A DNA stretch of 49,302 nucleotides from an uncultured Bacteroidota bacterium (GTDB lineage: Bacteria; Bacteroidota; Bacteroidia; 2-12-FULL-35-15): the NCBI GenBank assembly GCA_903911435.1, contig CAIWDF010000090.1, forward strand, positions 1 to 49,302, written 5' to 3'. Position 1 is the first letter of the stretch, and the number at the start of each line of letters is the position of its first letter. Shown one piece after another: positions 768-18,669 of this stretch. Both the position numbers and the translations under genes were made by a program. The notes beneath the pieces were generated by a model. The model was not told the origin of the DNA. It did not search any database and saw only the letters and a list, made by a program, of their open reading frames with translations.

Positions 768-3700
768 CTATCGAATAAGGGTAATCTTCCCTTTCCGTTT
801 CATTACATTTCCAGGGTCGTTGTTCAGGGCGAACGAAATAACATAAACATAAACATCCTCTTGCGCCATCCAGTCGCTATGCGACCAGCCATTCCAGCCA
901 ATCGTCAAGTCAGTCGATTCGAAAATCAATTCACCCCAGCGGTCGAAGATGCGCATATCGAAATTGTTCTTCGAGATACCCGTTCCTTTTATCATAAACA
1001 CATCGTTGATGCCATCGTCATTTGGTGAAAAGGCATTTGGAATAAAATAGGTGGAGATGGTAGCAATGTCAACCAGTTCCGAAACGGTGTCGCTACACAC
1101 TCCATTGTTCGCCACCAATATTACTGTATACGTTCCAGCCGAAGGGAAGGAGTAGCTAGGGTTTTCAACGGTGGATGTACTTCCTATTCCGAAGTTCCAT
1201 AGCCAATTGGTAGCATTTTGCGATAAATTATTAAACGCTACGGAAGGGTTAAGCTCATTCACATTGTCGGTATTGTAGGTGAAAGCCGCCACAGGCATAG
1301 GAGTTACATTCATGGTAATACTCGGTGCTGCTATGGTAGCCGGTGTGGCACAAGGTGCATTCGATGTCATAATCACCGTCACCACATCGCTGTTCGATAA
1401 ACCTGACGTAATAAAGATAGGTAGGTTGCTACCTTGATTGGCACCATTTACTTGCCATTGATAGTTAGGAGTTGTGCCTCCATTAATAGGAGTGGCAGTA
1501 AACGTCACACGGGTACCTGCACAGATGGTGGTGGCATTGGCAGCAATGCTTACACTTGGTATCACTATCGGATTCACCGTAAGGGTGATGGTGTTGGAAG
1601 TGTCGATGGCAGGCGACACACAGGTGGCATTCGAAGTCAACACTACCGATACCACATCGTTCGAGATAAAAGTACTTGCATTATAAGTTGACGAATTAGG
1701 CCCTGTATACAAACCATTTACTATCCATTGATAACTAGGCGAAGACCCTCCATTCACAGGAGTAGCTGTAAAGGTAACGTTGGTTCCAGCACAGATAGTG
1801 GTAGCACTCGCGGCAATGGTAACACTTGGCACAAGTATCGGATTCACGGTCATTACAATCGGTGTAGCGCTCAAGCTTGTAGGCGAAGCACACAAGGCAT
1901 TGGAGGTTAATACCACTGTCACACTATTGTTATTGGCAAAAGTAGAAGAAGAATAGGTAGTCGAATTGGTCCCAACATTGGCACCATTCACCTGCCATTG
2001 ATAGCTTGGGGCAGCACCTCCATTGGTAGCCACAGCTGTAAACGTTACGGAAGTTCCAGCACAAATAGTAGTATCGGTGGAGGAGATGGTGATAGTAGGC
2101 ACTTGAAGCGGATTCACCGTCATCAAGATATAGGTTGAAGTGTCGTTAGCAGGTGCTACACAAGTAGCGTTCGAAATCATAATCACCGTCACCGAATCGT
2201 TATTCGCCAACGTTGTACTTGAGTAAGTAGCCGAATTGATGCCAACGTTTACCCCATTTACTTGCCATTGATAAATTGGGCTTGCTCCTCCATTGGTAGG
2301 ACTTGCAGTAAATAGCACGGAAGTACCCGCACAAATAGTAGTAAGTGAGGCCACCGTAGTAACGCTTGGTACAAGGATTGGATTCACGGTCATCACGATG
2401 GCTGCTGAGGTATCAATACTCGGAGCAACACAAGTTGCATTCGAAGTAAGGATGGCTGTCACGGTATCATTATTTACTAGCGCTGAAGTAGTAAATGTAT
2501 TTGAATTGGTACCTACGGCTGTACTATTTACAAGCCATTGATATGTAGGGCTCGCTCCTCCATTGGTAGGTGTGGCTGTATACGTTACCGAAGCACCCGC
2601 ACAGATAGTGGTAGTGGTGGCCACAATGCTTACACTTGGTATCAAAATCGGAGTTACAATCATGGTAATGCCAGTCGAAGTAACCGTAGCAGGCGAAACA
2701 CAATTTGCATTAGAGGTCAAGGTAACCGTTACCACTTCACCATTGGCTAGCGTAGAGGAGGTGTATTGATTTGAATTTGTTCCCACATTGGTTCCATTCA
2801 CTTGCCATTGATACGCAGGAATGGTACCTCCATTGGTAGGACTTGCCGTAAAAGTTACGGAGGTTCCAGCACAAATGGTAGTATCGGTTGACGAAATGGT
2901 AACAAGTGGAACAGGCATTGCGTTTACGGTAATATAGATGGCTGAAGAAGTATCGGTGGCAGGCGACACACAGGTAGCATTCGAGGTAAGTACCACTGTC
3001 ACCGAATCGTTATTGGTTAAAGTAGAGGTGGTAAAAATATCAGAATTGGTTCCACTTGCTACTCCATTCACATACCATTGATAGCTTGGTGTACCGCCAT
3101 TGGTAGGTGTTGCAGTAAAGGTCACTGAAGTATTGGCACAAATGGTGGTGCTCGATGCTACGATGGTTACTTGTGGCACCAAAACAGGATTCACTGTAAT
3201 ACTTATACCACTAGAAACAGCAGTTAATGGTGATACACAGCTAGCACTTGTGGTCATTTCTACTGTTACATTATCATTGTTTGCTAAAGTAGAAGTGGTG
3301 AATGTTACCGAATTAGCTCCAGGAACAGCCACTCCTCCAATATACCATTGATAACCGGGTGTTAGTCCACCATTGGTAGGAGACGCAGTAAAGGTAATTG
3401 GGCTGCCAGCACAGATGGTGGTGGAGGAGGCAACGGTTGTTACCGCAGGTAAAGCAGCAGGTGTCACCGTCATCACAATGGTATTCGATATCGCAGAATT
3501 CGGAACCACACAAGGAGCATTGGATGTTAATACGGCAGTTACCTGATCGCCATTTGCCAATGTGGTGGTGGTATAAGTAGGCGAACCGGAAGAAACAACA
3601 ACTCCATTTACTACAAAAACGTACGATGGAGCACTACCTCCGTTGGTAGGTGTGGCAGTAAACGTTACCGAAGTGCCCGCACAGATGGTGGTGGTAGGGC

Positions 3701-6202: not shown

Positions 6203-6319
6203 TTGTAAGATTCTACTGCGATATCTGAAAATCAGCCCTTGCAGCGAATTAATGCGTACCTTGCGCCAAAATCATTAGAACGGAAGTTCTCAACTCTCAC
6301 ATTTATTCAAATTTAAACC

Positions 6320-7582
6320 ATGTTATTTAAATCATTAAATATTATTGAACCCATCCTGAAAGCTGTTGAAGAAGAAGGATATACCACACCAACACCAATT
6401 CAAGCACAAGCCATTCCTATTGTTTTACAAGGAATCGACTTATTAGGTTGCGCACAAACAGGTACAGGAAAAACGGCAGCCTTTGCTATTCCTATCCTTC
6501 AGCTTTTGTCGGCAAATAAAGTGTACGACAAAAAACGAAAAATCAGAAGTCTAATTGTTACTCCTACCAGAGAGCTTGCCATTCAAATTGGCGATAGTTT
6601 TAATGCTTATGGTCGACACACTGGGCTAAAATCTACTGTTGTATTTGGAGGTGTTAATCAAAATCCACAAACATCAGCCGTTCAGCAAGGTGTTGATATT
6701 TTAATTGCTACACCGGGACGTTTGCTCGACTTGATTCATCAAGGATTCATCAGCCTCAAAGATGTTGAATTGTTTGTATTGGATGAAGCTGACCGCATGC
6801 TCGATATGGGATTTATACATGATGTAAAGAAACTCTTAGCGTTGTTGCCTAAAAAACGTCAATCACTTTTTTTCTCGGCCACTATGCCTCCCGAAATAGT
6901 AAAACTTGCGAATACCATTCTAATCAATCCTTCAAAAGTTTCGGTTACTCCTGTGTCATCCACAGTTGATATTATCCAACAAAAAGTTTATTTTGTTGAT
7001 AAAGGAAACAAGAATGGTTTACTCATCGAATTATTGAAAGACAAAAATATCAAAACAGCTTTGGTATTCACTCGTACCAAACATGGTGCCGACAAAGTGG
7101 TGAAAATATTGATTAAACACAATATCAAAGCAGAAGCGATACATGGCAACAAGTCGCAAAATGCTCGTCAACGCGCATTGACTAATTTTAAGGCACAAAC
7201 TACACGCATCTTAGTCGCCACAGATATTGCCGCACGAGGAATTGATGTTGATGATTTGGAATACGTAATTAACTACGAAATGTCGAACATCCCAGAAACC
7301 TATGTTCACCGCATTGGTCGTACAGGTAGGGCAGGGGCTAAAGGCACAGCGCTTTCGTTTTGTGATGCCGAGGAAAAAGAATATTTGCGCGATGTAGAAA
7401 AGTTAATAGCCAAGAAAATTCCTGTAATTGATAATCATCCATTCCCACTGATGGATCATAACCCTGTGAAAGCTCCTAAACAAGAGCAAGGACGAAGAAG
7501 CTCGGGACATGCTCGACCGAAACCTCCTACAGGAAACACGGGAAAGAAAAAATGGTTTGCTCGACCTAATGGTTCGAGATAA
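6320..7582 (+). CDS. rhlE: DEAD-box RNA helicase, RhlE type
   Basis: An ATP-dependent RNA helicase of 420 residues, cytosolic, acting in RNA remodelling, ribosome assembly or decay. All core motifs are visible: Q motif TPTPIQ (24-29), Walker A AQTGTGKT (45-52), PTRELA (82-87), TPGR (131-134), DEAD (155-158), SAT (186-188), ARGID and HRIGRTGR (330-337). A short basic tail rich in K, R and G follows (about 385-420), typical of the RhlE subgroup in Bacteroidota. The NYN-domain gene follows 40 bases downstream, so the two may be co-transcribed. RhlE is favoured over DeaD or CsdA because there is no long RNA-binding C-terminal domain. Confidence 0.93.
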
Positions 7583-7622
7583 AACCTTGAAGACAATATA
7601 ATAGACCTTAAGGTCAGAACAA

Positions 7623-8387
7623 ATGGAACACAAAAAAGAATTAAAACTTGCCGTGCTGATAGATGCCGACAATGTGCCGTATGCCAATGTCAAAGAAATG
7701 TTCGAAGAGATTGCAAAGTATGGAACGCCCACCTTTAAACGCATTTATGCAGACTGGACCAAACCAACGGTATCAGGTTGGAAAAAAGTATTATTAGAAA
7801 ACGCAATTACACCTATTCAACAATATAGTTATTCTACAGGCAAAAATGCTTCAGATAGCGCTTTAATCATTGATGCAATGGATATATTGTATACTGGCAA
7901 AGTAGATGGTTTCTGCATCGTGTCGAGTGATAGCGATTTTACGCGACTAGCAACTCGTCTTCGTGAAGCAGGAATGAAAGTAATTGGAATTGGCGAAAAG
8001 AAAACACTGAATCCTTTCATCACCGCTTGCGACAAATTTATTTATATCGAAATACTCAAATCAGAAGCTATATCATTAATAGAACCTGATGATAACAAAG
8101 AGATAAAAAACACCAAATCTCCAGCTAAGAAGCCTTTAAGTAATATCGATCCGAAAATTATTAAACTATTTACAGATAGCATCACCGACTTAGCAGATGA
8201 AAATGGTTGGGCTTTTTTAGGAGAGCTCGGGAATTTAATGTTGAAGAAGAAACCTGACTTCGACCCAAGAAACTATGGGTTTCCAAAGATGTTACCTTTA
8301 ATAAAGAGCATCAATAAATTCGAAATTGACGAACGAGATACTGGCAAGGGTAATATCAAACACATCTACATTCGTAAGAAATCGTAA
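7623..8387 (+). CDS. NYN-domain (LabA/DUF88-like) protein with C-terminal OST-HTH/LOTUS domain
   Basis: Predicted RNA-binding or RNA-cleaving protein of 254 residues. The N-terminal NYN (PIN-like) domain shows the acidic positions expected: LIDADN (12-17), KNASDSALIIDAMD and VSSDSDFTRLATRLRE. The C-terminal part (about 170-250; IIKLFTDSITDLADENGWAFLGELG ending HIYIRKK) fits the OST-HTH/LOTUS winged-helix module that often pairs with NYN. Retention of the Asp residues suggests nuclease competence, but that is family-based inference. Its position 40 bases after an RNA helicase supports a role in RNA metabolism. It converges on the SUI1 gene. Confidence 0.88.
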   Translation: MEHKKELKLAVLIDADNVPYANVKEMFEEIAKYGTPTFKRIYADWTKPTVSGWKKVLLENAITPIQQYSYSTGKNASDSALIIDAMDILYTGKVDGFCIVSSDSDFTRLATRLREAGMKVIGIGEKKTLNPFITACDKFIYIEILKSEAISLIEPDDNKEIKNTKSPAKKPLSNIDPKIIKLFTDSITDLADENGWAFLGELGNLMLKKKPDFDPRNYGFPKMLPLIKSINKFEIDERDTGKGNIKHIYIRKKS

Positions 8388-11688: not shown

Positions 11689-12348
11689 TTATCTAGCGTA
11701 AGTATCTCTAGAATGAATAGTCGTTCCATTCGTTACTTCTGTAAATGTGATAGAAACCGAAGGAGTTGAAGTGGTGCTAATAGTTCCTGATCCACTAAAA
11801 GTTCTGCTTGCAGAAGGATTACCACACGAAACTGTTTGTGAAGGAACAGTTAAAGCATTAGGGCTAGTCATATTGAAATAAACACTTCCACTTGTATAAT
11901 CAGCAAATTTGGTAAGGTCAACTCTTCCACTTCCTGTATTTGACAAATGCATTGTTTCATTATAGTTACTTGGTGTTACACCTACAGTATCAGGGCTGTA
12001 ATCTAAAACAGTAGCATAGTATCCATCAATGTCAACAACGTTAACAGTTCTAGTTGCTGTTGTTTGATTACCTGCTTTGTCTTTTGAAATATAAGTGATA
12101 GTGTAAGTTCCTGTAGCGCTCATCAATGGGCTGTCAGAAGTTTGTGCTAAAATTGTTCCATCAACATCATCAGATGCAGTAGCTCCTGGATCTGACCATA
12201 CAGTTGATTTTTGAATGTAATAAGGATTTGAACCAACTACCGTGATTACAGGTTTAGTGGTGTCGTCTGTTCCTTTTTTACATCCTGTGTTTACTATAGA
12301 TAATGCTACTAAAGCAATTGAAGCTGCTCCTAAAATTTGTTTTTTCAT
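11689..12348 (-). CDS. Lipoprotein with DUF5011/HYR-like Ig domain (paralogue 1)
   Basis: A 219-residue lipoprotein. The start is placed at MKKQI, giving a lipoprotein signal ending SIVNTGC (lipid Cys near residue 23); the longer frame would precede the promoter-proximal region. The Ig-like domain (about 30-105) has the DUF5011 hallmarks TKPVITVVGSNP, WSDPGATASDDVDG and GTYTITYISKDKAGNQTT.TRTV. A strand-rich C-terminal domain of about 110 residues follows. It is a paralogue of the protein at 12897-13571, with the same architecture and spacing. Probably on the outer membrane or periplasmic side; binding partner unknown. Confidence 0.88.
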   Translation of the reverse strand: MKKQILGAASIALVALSIVNTGCKKGTDDTTKPVITVVGSNPYYIQKSTVWSDPGATASDDVDGTILAQTSDSPLMSATGTYTITYISKDKAGNQTTATRTVNVVDIDGYYATVLDYSPDTVGVTPSNYNETMHLSNTGSGRVDLTKFADYTSGSVYFNMTSPNALTVPSQTVSCGNPSASRTFSGSGTISTTSTPSVSITFTEVTNGTTIHSRDTYAR

Positions 12349-12388
12349 TTTGTTTTTAATTTTTAATGGTTGATTTAAAATTCGGGTG

Positions 12389-12396
12389 CAAATATA
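12389..12396 (-). promoter_or_regulatory. -7 element of the first DUF5011 lipoprotein gene
   Basis: TATATTTG on the minus strand matches TAnnTTTG, 41 bases before the chosen ATG and downstream of the longer-frame start, which supports the shorter start. Confidence 0.5.
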
Positions 12397-12424
12397 CATA
12401 ACTTTTGTTAAATGGAAGTCTTTT

Positions 12425-12896: not shown

Positions 12897-13571
12897 TCAC
12901 CGATGGGTGAAAACTGCTGTTCCTTGTATTAGAGAATCGATGGAATTGATTTCTTTAAAGTGGAAAGTGAGTTTTAATTTATCAGTTCCTATTCCCATTC
13001 CACTAATACTACCTTGCCCTTCAATTTGGTCTGTTCCTCCACTAGCGGCAGGTTGATTTAATACCGTGATGCTAGTTCCCATAAAAGAAGTTATAGCAAT
13101 GTTAGCCGGGCGTCTAGCGAAATTACTTATTGTTAAATCATAGTAGGTAGGAATGTTGATGGCTGTAACTATTGAGGAATCAGGGTGAGTAGGAACAGTA
13201 TTTCTAGATGTATCGCTACAAGAATATTGCACCAAATCATATTTTCCATCAAAATTCACAACTTTTACTGTTCTGCTTGCCGTTACCGAGTTTTCTGCTT
13301 CATCTTTTGCAGTATATATTATAGTGTAGGTACCAACAACGTCAGGGTTCACATTTCCAGTACTTGTTACGGCTACCGTTCCATCTTTATCATCGTTGGC
13401 CGAACAACCCATATCAGCATAAGATTTTCCTTGTTGCCAATACATGGTGGTTGGACCATACATTGTTAAGATAGGACTAGTGGTGTCTTTCGGATCTTTT
13501 TTACAACTACTGACAAATAAAGAAGATGACAGCAAAGTAATACATGATAATAGAATAAGATTTTTCTTCAT
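12897..13571 (-). CDS. Lipoprotein with DUF5011/HYR-like Ig domain (paralogue 2)
   Basis: A 224-residue lipoprotein with start at MKKNL and lipobox SLFVSSC (lipid Cys near residue 23). The Ig-like domain carries TTSPILTMYGPT, YADMGCSANDDKDG and GTYTIIYTAKDEAENS, then TASRTVKVVNFDGKYD, colinear with the paralogue at 11689-12348. The C-terminal domain shares the YDLVQYSCSD/ITSF arrangement and the QIEGQGSISG segment but is diverged. The longer frame upstream is rejected because it would begin upstream of the -7 element. Likely surface or periplasmic; role unknown. Confidence 0.88.
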   Translation of the reverse strand: MKKNLILLSCITLLSSSLFVSSCKKDPKDTTSPILTMYGPTTMYWQQGKSYADMGCSANDDKDGTVAVTSTGNVNPDVVGTYTIIYTAKDEAENSVTASRTVKVVNFDGKYDLVQYSCSDTSRNTVPTHPDSSIVTAINIPTYYDLTISNFARRPANIAITSFMGTSITVLNQPAASGGTDQIEGQGSISGMGIGTDKLKLTFHFKEINSIDSLIQGTAVFTHR

Positions 13572-13601
13572 CTGTTTTTTTATTTCAAGATAAGTGAAGC
13601 A

Positions 13602-13609
13602 CAAAAGTA
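13602..13609 (-). promoter_or_regulatory. -7 element of the second DUF5011 lipoprotein gene
   Basis: TACTTTTG on the minus strand, 31 bases before the chosen ATG; predicted leader about 26 bases. Confidence 0.55.
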
Positions 13610-13751
13610 TAAAAAAATACCATCGAAATAAAATCATACCTATTTTAAAAGTTAATCAACTCATTTTTTGCGTTGACCATTCAGGATTCACAAATTAAAT
13701 TAAAGTTTGAGATGTTTTCAAAAAATGTTTTCCCATTCAAGAAATAAAATC

Positions 13752-13759
13752 TATTTTTG
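13752..13759 (+). promoter_or_regulatory. -7 element of the MgtE-like/NRAMP operon
   Basis: TATTTTTG matches TAnnTTTG; no clear TTTG lies about 21 bp upstream. It predicts transcription from near 13765 and an unusually long leader of about 135 bases. Confidence 0.55.
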
Positions 13760-13765
13760 CGCGAT

Positions 13766-13899
13766 TTTTATCAGGAATAAACAATAATGGACGAAGGCCC
13801 TACGTATAGTAAAATAAATAAACCACAGTAAAGCGGGCGGCATTCTGATTTTCTTTCAGTCACTGCTTCCTTCTTCACTACAAAAGATAGGAGGCAAAA
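13766..13899 (+). promoter_or_regulatory. Candidate structured 5' leader with a perfect Shine-Dalgarno
   Basis: The region between the -7 element and the sensor gene has no reading frame. GACGAAGG (13790-13797) can pair with CCTTCTTC (13869-13876), one mismatch, closing about 70 bases that contain a small hairpin CTGA-TCAG (13843-13860 area). A perfect AGGAGG (13889-13894) sits five bases before the ATG, rare in this phylum, and its AGGA could instead pair with TCCT at 13868-13871. That gives two mutually exclusive folds. It matches none of the metal riboswitch classes I can recognise. Inference only. Confidence 0.35.
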
Positions 13900-15174
13900 A
13901 TGACTTCACAAATAACATTTTATTTAAGCCGTTTAATTGGTACCAAATGTGTTGGACTCGATGGTAAAACCATTGGTATCCTTAAGGATTTGATTATTGA
14001 AAATCAAACTCCAATACATCCAGATAACGAGCCTATTCGCCCTAAAGTAATCGCTTTTCAAATAAAACACAAAAAGCAAATTCGTTATCTGAATTCTCAA
14101 TTCATACAGATTCAAAAGAAAAACGATAACTATAAAATCATTTGCGAAAAGATAGAACACCCCGCTGTGGATGTGATTCATCACTCCCTTTTCTTGGTGG
14201 ATAATGTACTCGACAAACAAATTGTCGATATTAATGGTAGAAAACTTGTTCGAGTAAATGATATAAGGTTAGTTTCTATTCCCTCTGGCATCTATGCTGT
14301 GGCTGTAGATGTTGGGGTAGAAGGCCTGTTGAGACGATTAGGTGTTGCTAAAAAGATAACTACTTTACTTAAACCATTCAAAGTTTCAATTCCTTCAAAG
14401 TTCTTTCTTTGGGATGATATTGCAGCGGTTGATTATGGCCATTCGGGAATAAAACTTTCTAAAACAGTGGCGAAATTGGAAACTCTTCACCCATCTGATG
14501 TAGCTGATATTATCGAAGATTTTGGTAAGTACGAAGGTTCACGAGTGTTCGAAGCTTTGAATGATGAACATGCAGCCGATGTATTGGAGGAACTTGAACC
14601 TCATGCACAAGTGCAAATCATCGAGAGTCTTTCAGTTGAAAAAGCTGCTGATGTACTCGAAAAGATGCCTGCTGATGAGGTTGCCGATTTGTTAGAAGAA
14701 CTTGGTGAAGAAAAAGCAGAGGAGTTGCTCATGGAGATGGACAAGGAGTCTTCGGAAGAAGTACGTGAACTTCTCGAGTATCCAGGACATTCGGTTGGAA
14801 GTATTATGAGTACTGATTACCTTTCGTTTAAAGAAAACACAAAAGTGAATGATGTACTCATTTTTCTGCGTGAACAAAAGCCGGAGGCAAATACTATTTA
14901 TGCTCTCTTTGTAATTGATCAAACGGACAAATTTCTTTCATCCGTTACTCTTCGCGACATCGTGGTGGCTCATCCCGATTCAACAATGAAAGACATTATG
15001 AAGAAAAATCCTGTGACGGTGTTTGATGATGATAATATTGACGAACTAGGAGAAATTGTTTCGAAATATAATTTATTGGCTGTGCCTGTTATTAATAAAC
15101 AAAAGCAATTGGAAGGCATGGTGGTGATAGATGATATCGTTGAAGATTTGCTAAATAAAGGTAAAACCAAATAA
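13900..15174 (+). CDS. Soluble MgtE-type Mg2+ sensor: PRC-barrel repeats, MgtE N domain, tandem CBS, no membrane domain
   Basis: A 424-residue cytosolic protein. Residues 1-80 and 100-180 are two PRC-barrel-like units (LIGTKCVGLDGKTIGILKDL; LDKQIVDINGRKLVRVNDI). Residues 193-295 form the MgtE N superhelix (LHPSDVADIIEDF and repeats of the type AADVLEEL). Residues 300-420 form a CBS pair (GSIMSTDYLSF; IMKKNPVTVFDDD, ending VVIDDIVEDLL). In MgtE these domains bind Mg2+ and gate the pore; here the membrane channel is absent. The NRAMP-like gene starts 18 bases after the stop, so it probably gates or regulates that carrier. Domain calls are firm; regulation is inferred. Confidence 0.9.
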   Translation: MTSQITFYLSRLIGTKCVGLDGKTIGILKDLIIENQTPIHPDNEPIRPKVIAFQIKHKKQIRYLNSQFIQIQKKNDNYKIICEKIEHPAVDVIHHSLFLVDNVLDKQIVDINGRKLVRVNDIRLVSIPSGIYAVAVDVGVEGLLRRLGVAKKITTLLKPFKVSIPSKFFLWDDIAAVDYGHSGIKLSKTVAKLETLHPSDVADIIEDFGKYEGSRVFEALNDEHAADVLEELEPHAQVQIIESLSVEKAADVLEKMPADEVADLLEELGEEKAEELLMEMDKESSEEVRELLEYPGHSVGSIMSTDYLSFKENTKVNDVLIFLREQKPEANTIYALFVIDQTDKFLSSVTLRDIVVAHPDSTMKDIMKKNPVTVFDDDNIDELGEIVSKYNLLAVPVINKQKQLEGMVVIDDIVEDLLNKGKTK

Positions 15175-15192
15175 TTAAATGTCTATTGTTTT

Positions 15193-16443
15193 ATGGCTTT
15201 ATTAAAGATAAAAAGAAAAAGATTTTGGGCACAACTAGCAGTGTTTGCTGCTGTTCTTGGCCCAGGTATCATTACCGGAAGTGTGGATAATGACGCTGGA
15301 GGTATCACCACGTATTCTGTTGCGGGTGCGCTTTATGGTTATAAATTGGTGTGGACCTTAATACCCTCGTTCATCGTACTTATTATTATTCAAGAGATGA
15401 ATGCTCGGATGGGAATAGTAACTGGTAAAGGGTTGGCTGATTTAATTCGTGAGAATGCTGGTGTAAAGGTTACCTTCTTTATTTTCGTTGGTTTGTTGAT
15501 TGCCGATATTGGAAACACTACCACAGAATTTGCAGGTGTGGCAGGTAGTATGGAAGTGTTTGGAATAAATAAATACATCTCGGTGCCATTGGTGGCTTTT
15601 GGAATATGGGTCTTAGTCGTCAAGGGGACTTATCAGAGTGCGGAAAAAATATTTCTTGTTTTTAGTGTCTGCCTCTTAACTTATATTGTTTCAGCAATAA
15701 TGGGGAAACCTCATTGGGCCGAAATAGGAAATTCCATTGTTCATCCTCAGCTCGACATGACCTCACAAAGCATTGCATTGGTCATTGGTTTGGTGGGTAC
15801 CACCATTGCTCCATGGATGCAATTCTACATGCAATCATCGGTAATTGAAAAAGGACTAAAAATGAAGAACTATAAATATGTTCTCATTGATATACTTATT
15901 GGATGCATCGCCACTGTGGTGGTTGCCTTTTTCATCATCATTGCTTGTGCATCTACTTTGCACGAAAATGGAATCGTCATCAACGAAGCCAAAGATGCAG
16001 CCATGGCCCTGAAACCTTTGGCTGGAGCATTAGCAGGATTTGTTTACGCTTTTGGATTATTCATTGCTTCTATATTTTCGGCTACTATTTTGCCATTGGC
16101 AACAGCCTTTTATGTTTGCGAAGCATTCGGGTTTGAGGCTGGAATAGATAAGAAATGGAAAGAAGCTCCAGAGTTTTATTATCTGTATACAAGCATCATC
16201 GTTATTTCGGCTCTTATTATTCTTATTCCAAATGCACCACTTATCGCTATTAGTTTATGGTCGCAGGTGCTTAATGGTATGCTATTGCCAGTAGTATTAG
16301 TGTGCATGATATTACTTGTAAACAACAAACGCATCATGGGAAAACATGTGAACAAACCTTTAAATAATATTATCGGTTGGTCGGCAGTAGCTGTTTTGGT
16401 AGCCCTTTCGTGCATATTGCTTTTAATGCCTTTATTCAAATAA
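15193..16443 (+). CDS. NRAMP-family divalent metal transporter with altered metal site, possibly Mg2+
   Basis: A polytopic inner-membrane carrier of 416 residues with about 11 membrane segments. TM1 has the family GPG (23-25), but the DPGN motif is DAGG (34-37), so the metal-binding Asn is Gly. The TM6 motif that is normally MPH reads APW (206-208), replacing the Met that favours Mn2+/Fe2+ over Mg2+/Ca2+ in canonical NRAMPs. With an MgtE-type sensor gene 18 bases upstream, Mg2+ is the most likely substrate. That is inference from residue loss and context. A DUF6438 gene follows 13 bases downstream. Confidence 0.9.
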   Translation: MALLKIKRKRFWAQLAVFAAVLGPGIITGSVDNDAGGITTYSVAGALYGYKLVWTLIPSFIVLIIIQEMNARMGIVTGKGLADLIRENAGVKVTFFIFVGLLIADIGNTTTEFAGVAGSMEVFGINKYISVPLVAFGIWVLVVKGTYQSAEKIFLVFSVCLLTYIVSAIMGKPHWAEIGNSIVHPQLDMTSQSIALVIGLVGTTIAPWMQFYMQSSVIEKGLKMKNYKYVLIDILIGCIATVVVAFFIIIACASTLHENGIVINEAKDAAMALKPLAGALAGFVYAFGLFIASIFSATILPLATAFYVCEAFGFEAGIDKKWKEAPEFYYLYTSIIVISALIILIPNAPLIAISLWSQVLNGMLLPVVLVCMILLVNNKRIMGKHVNKPLNNIIGWSAVAVLVALSCILLLMPLFK

Positions 16444-16456
16444 TATACCTTTTATC

Positions 16457-16942
16457 ATGAAAACTCTTCTGTATTCTTTTTTTATTTTGATACTTGCTCC
16501 ATGCAACAAACCTCAACAAACAGCTGTAACTAAGCCTACGAAAGACCTCTCGAAGATAATCATCACTTGCCGACAAACTGCCTGTTTTGGTAAATGTCCG
16601 GTAACAACGTTCACCATCAATGGTGGTACTAAAACCATGACATTTGTTGGACAATTGAATGTTGAACGACTTGGTAGATACACCAAACCGATTACAGATA
16701 AAGAATTGAGTGAAGTGGTGGAAGCCTTTGATAAAGCTAATTTCCTAGGATTCGATAAAGAATACCTTTCGAAAACTTCTGATTTTCCTTCGGTGGTTGT
16801 TACCTATTCGTACGATGGCGAATTGAAATCGGTTACCGATAGACAAGCTGGCCCGCCTGCATTGCAACAACTTGAACTTTTGCTACGCAGCATGGCCAAC
16901 AACTTACAAGGTTGGACGAAAGAAGTACCTGTGGAACACTAG
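16457..16942 (+). CDS. DUF6438-domain lipoprotein
   Basis: A 161-residue putative lipoprotein. The signal peptide ends LILAPC (Cys16). The DUF6438 hallmark follows: ITCRQTACFGKCPVTTFTINGG (around 36-57), with a Cys pair, then a LGRYTKPITDKELSEVVEAF helix and an SVVVTYSYDGELKSVTD segment. Function of the family is unknown. It is 13 bases after the NRAMP-like gene and may be its operon partner, or simply read through. Its TAG stop overlaps the stop of the convergent gene in a shared CTAG. Confidence 0.85.
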   Translation: MKTLLYSFFILILAPCNKPQQTAVTKPTKDLSKIIITCRQTACFGKCPVTTFTINGGTKTMTFVGQLNVERLGRYTKPITDKELSEVVEAFDKANFLGFDKEYLSKTSDFPSVVVTYSYDGELKSVTDRQAGPPALQQLELLLRSMANNLQGWTKEVPVEH

Positions 16943-18296: not shown

Positions 18297-18438
18297 TTCG
18301 AAGTGTAACTATTCATAAAGTTTTTGCAACTGGGACAGGTATCTCTCACTGCGTTTAAAGTACTTAACGTATTGATTTAAACCCTTATTTCTTCTCGAAA
18401 AAAAAGCATTCGTGCAATGCATGGTTACATTCAAAGTT

Positions 18439-18669
18439 GGCGGTGTTGATTTTTTGGACGGTGGACTATATTTTGGATGCAGTGGACTTGATTTTTCGTT
18501 CAGTGGATTTAATTTTGAGTGCGATGGACTAGATTTTGGATGCAGTGGACTTAATTTTGGATGCGGTGGACTCGATTTTGAGAGCGATGGACTCGATTTT
18601 CTGTTCAGTGGACTCGATTTTGAACGCAGTGGACTTAATTTTGAGAGCGATGGACTTGATTTTTGAGCT
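18439..18669. repeat. 21-bp tandem array, 11 units
   Basis: Units start every 21 bp (18439, 18460, 18481 and so on to 18649). The constant part is TGGACTYGATTTT; the remaining positions vary between units (GGATGC, TCGTTC, GAGTGC, GAGAGC, CTGTTC, GAACGC). The first unit is degenerate. The array is open in one plus-strand frame, encoding a GLDF-containing heptad, but this follows from the period and is not taken as a gene. Confidence 0.9.

Follow-up and report, generated by a model that had tools for sequence, protein, structure and literature searches.

The stretch analysed here, called the window below, comprises 49,302 nucleotides of an uncultured Bacteroidota bacterium (contig CAIWDF010000090.1) and carries on its forward strand a locus which we consider rather probably explained, as a whole, as an nrmT magnesium-uptake operon, made up of an NRAMP-related magnesium transporter (NRMT), an MgtE-like partner protein and a leader attenuator. 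The gene pair has already been described; the leader switch, a tiny upstream open reading frame (uORF) followed by two competing hairpins, is apparently unreported and by analogy with known leaders probably activates the pair under magnesium shortage. The original prediction for this locus, made from the sequence alone, had proposed a detached magnesium sensor beside a remodelled NRAMP carrier. Its observations held and its interpretation held in part, but the conserved leader-peptide attenuator upstream was missed, even though the predicted interval started at 13752, on a conserved promoter box, and hence took in the 5′ leader.

The leader opens with a TAnnTTTG box at 13752..13759 (TATTTTTG), which we take to be a Bacteroidota-type −7 promoter box and which has a matching box (TACTTTTG) at the same place in the related loci L006, L007 and L093; the start site is predicted near 13765. 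It is followed at 13787..13831 by the uORF of 14 codons (MDEGPTYSKINKPQ and a stop codon), whose counterparts within the genus are MDEGPSSRYLNNLK in L005, MDEGPARNKTIKPQ in L006 and MDEGPTDRILTNPH in L007 and L093, and whose pattern MD[DE][GDY]P is kept across Bacteroidota. A short open reading frame of the form MDxxP was detected within about 220 nucleotides upstream in 43 of 71 pair loci, versus 14 of 3726 equally long control windows taken from these loci. As the pattern had been picked from the leaders of the genus, D2 and P5 are invariant in this survey by construction, while among the residues not set by it position 3 is mostly D or E, position 4 is G, D or Y and position 6 is mostly A. 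Independent checks on the survey are the background rate and the variant MDESEP of L105, which was found by a covariance model. This model picked up the element nowhere but in front of such operons. It includes the window, whose leader it matched with E 3e-16, and also in a search of 296 Bacteroidota genomes the window was its single strong match (E 3e-15, again as a member of the model). Ten weak matches (E 0.003–0.05) lay at unrelated sites, and the nine of them that were read are all situated within or beside other genes; matches in other loci weaker than about E 0.03 were taken as chance. Ahead of the canonical mgtE or corA genes of the genus no conserved uORF was found, with one isolated MDDPIKFLPDSLPI before mgtE in L070.

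Downstream of the uORF, three segments of the same strand can form two helices. Region 1 (13826..13843) covers the last uORF codon, the stop codon and the next bases; region 3 (13863..13880) contains the anti-Shine-Dalgarno strand and a loop; and region 4 (13883..13897) bears the Shine-Dalgarno sequence AGGAGG of the first gene of the pair. Region 3 can pair with region 1 or, alternatively, with region 4; the two helices are mutually exclusive, and helix 3:4 buries the Shine-Dalgarno sequence. A further small hairpin, CUGA...UCAG, occupies the gap that separates region 1 from region 3 (13844..13860) and is confined to the genus (the window, L005, L006, L007 and L093). When the regions of 33 Bacteroidota leaders were swapped between leaders, the duplexes weakened from −18.0 kcal/mol for own partners to −12.4 kcal/mol for helix 1:3 and from −17.5 to −12.9 kcal/mol for helix 3:4 (permutation p 2e-4 each), and the control pairing 1:4 gave no signal in these leaders (p 0.76). 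In an alignment of 26 leaders 84.8% of the cells of helix 3:4 were paired, and the covariation of both helices was reached by none of 500 shuffles and also exceeded that of slid versions of the helices. Since related sequences can exceed shuffles, what counts here is the comparison with slid helices, along with the swap test. This comparison of sequences demonstrates the uORF and both competing helices, with their covariation and their association with Mg2+ genes.

The arrangement extends to Firmicutes, where seven leaders share the layout of uORF and two helices. M-box riboswitches were found ahead of nrmT operons in Firmicutes relatives, and in nine of these operons the uORF lies behind the M-box Mg2+ riboswitch, roughly 70–140 nucleotides downstream. 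These uORFs (MDGDPYDK..., MDTDPDGR..., MDPDPSIE...) are preceded by a clear Shine-Dalgarno site. In the window, the region 13400–16700 contained no match to the M-box (RF00380) even at E 5 and no other Rfam element, and for the Bacteroidota pair, as far as found, there is neither an M-box nor a described control of expression by Mg2+. A literature search, which omits most subscription journals, gave no description of a leader peptide for nrmT. Taken together, we judge it likely, if by no great measure, that an unreported attenuator which senses Mg2+, composed of an MDxxP uORF and two competing helices, is present in the nrmT operons of both Bacteroidota and Firmicutes; it would be unrelated in sequence to the proteobacterial mgtL and mgtQ leaders and in Firmicutes would stand in series with the M-box. 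In the Clostridia loci L128 (2104–2240) and L143 (941–1074), a terminator-like hairpin and a run of T follow the uORF, which suggests that the attenuator takes a transcriptional form there.

How such a leader might work can be modelled on two enterobacterial precedents. In Escherichia coli mgtL, low Mg2+ favours dissociation of the ribosome at an early EPDP stretch, after which the mRNA refolds and mgtA is transcribed (PMC11282234). In Salmonella mgtQ, a uORF of 8 codons with Asp2, Pro4 and Glu5, an alternative stem frees the sequestered ribosome binding site of mgtB (PMC8092293). From the mgtL and mgtQ leaders of Salmonella and E. coli we infer translation of the window uORF, ribosome drop-off and Mg2+ as signal. 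With ample Mg2+, ribosomes would complete the uORF and cover region 1, so that region 3 would pair with the Shine-Dalgarno sequence, which would switch the operon off. At low Mg2+, ribosomes would tend to drop off at the early acidic and proline codons and leave region 1 free; pairing of region 1 with region 3 would then release the Shine-Dalgarno sequence and the operon would be on. The geometry allows this, since a ribosome that halts at codons 3–6, or departs there, stops short of region 1 (about uORF base 37 onward), and helix 1:3 could form.

The two genes served by this leader both lie on the forward strand with a spacing of 18 bases. The first, at 13900..15174, encodes a channel-less protein of 424 residues that resembles the cytosolic domains of MgtE (called the fragment below), and the second, nrmT at 15193..16443, a carrier of 416 residues. 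The best solved relative of the carrier in phmmer searches was EleNRMT (PDB 7QIA; E 6e-112, 44% identity over the whole length), and MntH proteins matched it at 5e-23 or worse. In a FastTree phylogeny the carrier is placed inside the NRMT clade with EleNRMT, and both the MntH proteins (DPGN/MPH) and the DPSG/TISPY outgroup fall outside. The published NRMT signature DxxG...TxxA/T (PMC8806188) is present as DAGG in transmembrane helix 1 (TM1; D34-A-G-G37, 15292..15303) and as TTIA in TM6 (T203-T-I-A-P-W208, 15799..15816); MntH-type relatives carry DPGN and VMPH at the equivalent sites. The predicted DAGG and APW motifs of an NRAMP gene 18 bases downstream were thus confirmed, with NDAGG at residues 33–37 and TTIAPW at residues 203–208. 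Also the proposal that this carrier imports Mg2+ is well supported, judging by clade and motifs, by the linkage to the fragment and by the Mg2+ riboswitches on Firmicutes operons. The source genome encodes one separate MntH-like NRAMP (DPGN/MPH). The MntH-type NRAMP of the genus (G000:C244:1582-2649, which is L002, and L017–L033) has an open frame of about 625–645 residues, some 200 above the usual length, which implies a terminal extension. A third NRAMP type (DDDPSG/GTTISPY; L009–L016), about 30% identical to NRMT, occurs in approximately ten genomes of the genus, had no MgtE-like neighbour in the loci read and resembles what the literature calls the "Nramp outgroup".

The pairing of fragment and carrier was real, though not new: according to Shin et al. 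(2014, PMC4072509), most members of the NrmT clade have an adjacent gene for an MgtE N-terminal cytoplasmic domain, for which a feedback role was proposed. The co-occurrence across genomes that the original prediction had suggested checking was found. Our set comprised 80 genome loci from Bacteroidota, Ignavibacteria, Spirochaetes, Omnitrophota, Firmicutes, Myxococcota, Nitrospirota and others, four of which were cut by contig ends; in 73 of the 76 usable loci the fragment adjoins nrmT. In the phylum sample of 296 genomes, the fragment with its PRC and MgtE domains was detected in 38 of 39 NRMT-positive genomes and starts in the 39th before the contig end cuts it, which makes 39 of 39, versus none of the 257 genomes lacking NRMT. 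In one family (f18, L039–L062) the order is reversed, with nrmT first, and the linkage is retained; this family has no MDxxP uORF and shows a conserved block, GCCAGATTGACNGGT, upstream of nrmT instead. L127 holds two copies of the fragment gene (1689–3094 and 6302–7708), one per strand, and both have a leader uORF and attenuator of their own. A fusion of the two genes was not seen among the loci read, where no exhaustive search was made, and the mirror-tree correlation of the two proteins (0.68) adds nothing beyond shared descent.

Apparently the pair takes the place of canonical MgtE, since the MgtE pore domain (PF01769) is missing from most NRMT-positive genomes of the genus. Among 36 genus genomes it was absent in four of five with NRMT and in one of 31 without (Fisher p 4e-4, uncorrected for descent), the latter being a genome of 78% completeness. 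No match to PF01769 was obtained anywhere in the source genome, the fragment included.

Pfam bore out that the fragment has kept the MgtE_N and CBS domains and lost the channel. The MgtE_N superhelix spans residues 196–295 (14485..14784; PF03448, E 1e-28, 103.8 bits in the genome search) and the CBS pair residues 304–417 (14809..15150; two CBS stretches, Pfam 4e-15). The AlphaFold2 model of the fragment (mean predicted local distance difference test score 84) matches the MgtE cytosolic-domain structures 8GPV and 2YVY with E of about 1e-20. Of the regulatory Mg2+ sites known from Thermus thermophilus MgtE (TtMgtE), the acids of Mg4, Mg6 and Mg7 are kept (E59 as D227, D91 as D259, D95 as D263 and, in the CBS pair, D247 as D412), as they are in the canonical MgtE of the genus; Mg5 is half changed (D226 to N) and the ATP-stacking F227 is replaced by L, likewise in the canonical protein. 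The fragment terminates where the plug helix would begin, and the Mg2 and Mg3 sites are missing together with the channel. With these acids kept and the plug helix gone, the sensor could still answer Mg2+ but must reach the carrier another way.

The fold also agreed with the two PRC-barrel-like units that had been predicted, which profile searches barely detect in the first case and miss in the second. Barrel 1 (residues 5–82, 13912..14145) gave a marginal match to PF05239 (21.9 bits at a cut-off of 21.2) and is seen in the AlphaFold2 model. Barrel 2 (residues 96–170, 14185..14409), which carries most of the near-invariant residues in the N-terminal half, remained below the Pfam threshold even in relatives, its profile retrieved nothing from PDB sequences, and it was found by fold only. 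An AlphaFold2 model of residues 1–187 (predicted template modelling score 0.81) aligned with CdpB, which has tandem PRC barrels, across about 145 columns (E 9e-5). A weaker match was to the H subunit of the photosynthetic reaction centre, a subunit seated on a membrane complex at its cytoplasmic face. The fragment probably docks on the cytosolic face of the carrier and reports cytosolic Mg2+, perhaps acting through docking of the PRC barrels, and gating of the carrier is its candidate role.

Several observations weigh against this interpretation of the operon, and those from complementation assays are given with the alternatives to which they belong. About 40% of the pair loci have no MDxxP uORF, the fairly close relative L094 included. 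The window uORF offers two adjacent acids and one early proline (MDEGP), which is weaker than the EPDP of MgtL, and di-acidic residues alone are insufficient (PMC11282234). The genome also encodes one CorA, so that the nrmT pair is probably not its only Mg2+ route.

Among the alternatives, the one that survives best concerns the fragment, which could be an independent Mg2+/Mn2+ sensor, a chaperone or a scaffold next to a carrier working alone; we hold this for quite conceivable, at somewhat less than an even chance. Published NrmT proteins complement in the absence of the fragment, and the sole published co-expression, with the Acidobacterium proteins, brought no gain in Mg2+ rescue. A carrier without a partner does occur, as three loci have nrmT without the fragment (L162, L166 and L165, 3118–3284, where nrmT lies directly behind an M-box). 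On the other hand, the linkage is near-obligate over many phyla and in two gene orders, the Mg2+-site acids are kept, and negative feedback would escape a complementation assay.

Turning to the leader, the attenuator could be real and its signal something other than Mg2+, for example charged tRNA-Pro, polyamines, EttA-type factors or general translation stress. Precedents exist, since the Salmonella mgtP and mgtM leaders respond to other signals (PMC8092293) and EttA governs completion of MgtL (PMC11282234). We nevertheless regard this as rather unlikely, because most uORFs have one early proline codon, nine Firmicutes uORFs lie behind an M-box, the genes downstream of the leader are Mg2+ genes, and the canonical mgtE of the genus is without such a leader. 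It is unlikely that the leader is a riboswitch-like RNA which senses Mg2+ or another ligand directly, with the uORF untranslated or its translation irrelevant. A ligand alone could switch two alternative helices, and some bases are conserved beyond coding need (GCG at codon 6), but the MDxxP peptide recurs across phyla with differing codons, the third base being most variable in codons 3, 4 and 5 of the aligned Bacteroidota leaders. Furthermore, the uORFs of Firmicutes possess strong Shine-Dalgarno sites and sit downstream of a separate Mg2+ riboswitch, and apart from the uORF start the leader has neither a conserved aptamer-like core nor an Rfam match.

That the carrier, like the Acidobacterium protein, imports chiefly Mn2+/Fe2+ is very unlikely. 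The published Acidobacterium pair behaved mainly as a Mn2+ transporter, with full rescue of a Mn2+ mutant and poor rescue of a Mg2+ mutant, and X-ray data located Mn2+ in the EleNRMT site (PMC8806188), but the genome has its separate MntH-type NRAMP, MgtE has nearly given way to NRMT in the genus and sister operons carry Mg2+ riboswitches.

Around the operon, the window encodes two paralogous small secreted proteins on the reverse strand (11689–12399 and 12897–13637) with a domain DTTKPVITVVG..., by eye immunoglobulin-like of the DUF5011 type, and between their genes a short lipoprotein-like open reading frame rich in Ala, Lys and Glu. On the 3′ side of the pair, repetitive low-complexity open reading frames occur in the window (18412–18666) and in L005 (2869–3210), with GLDFxCSGLNF... 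and ETCNLLNETYHLL...; these are apparently short tandem repeats whose units differ between the two relatives.

If the attenuator reading is right, Mg2+ sensing by ribosome drop-off would reach two phyla beyond the enterobacteria, and sensing via intrinsic destabilisation of the ribosome would have arisen repeatedly or be ancient. The operons would stack three possible Mg2+ checks, namely riboswitch, leader peptide and sensor protein. For the Bacteroidota pair, which lacks the M-box, the conserved leader peptide and attenuator offer a directly testable answer to how its expression follows Mg2+.

Compared with known systems, the carrier stands closest to EleNRMT (PDB 7QIA), with identical site motifs NDAGG and GTTIAPW; in the accessible text of PMC8806188 that protein is treated as a lone carrier, and neither a regulatory partner nor a leader is mentioned. 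The Ca_c0685 operon of Clostridium acetobutylicum, as far as the accessible text of PMC4072509 describes it, matches the window in carrier clade, channel-less MgtE-like neighbour and feedback proposal; it has an M-box riboswitch, which the window lacks, and the leader uORF, the competing helices and the two PRC barrels are not mentioned there. With TtMgtE (2YVY/2ZY9) the fragment has the N superhelix and the CBS pair in common (TM-score 0.85 on target 2YVY), whereas the plug helix and the channel are absent and two PRC barrels are added. The archaeal CdpB (PDB 8QZO) resembles the N-terminal 170 residues of the fragment in fold, at 12–14% identity, and has no MgtE or CBS domains. Like mgtL and mgtQ, the window leader has a conserved short uORF with early acidic and proline codons ahead of a Mg2+ transporter, and like mgtQ it has mutually exclusive stems, one of which hides a ribosome binding site that the alternative stem would expose. 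It differs from both in phylum, sequence and transporter family, lies at the 5′ end of the operon where mgtQ is intergenic, and apparently acts on translation, whereas mgtL works through Rho.

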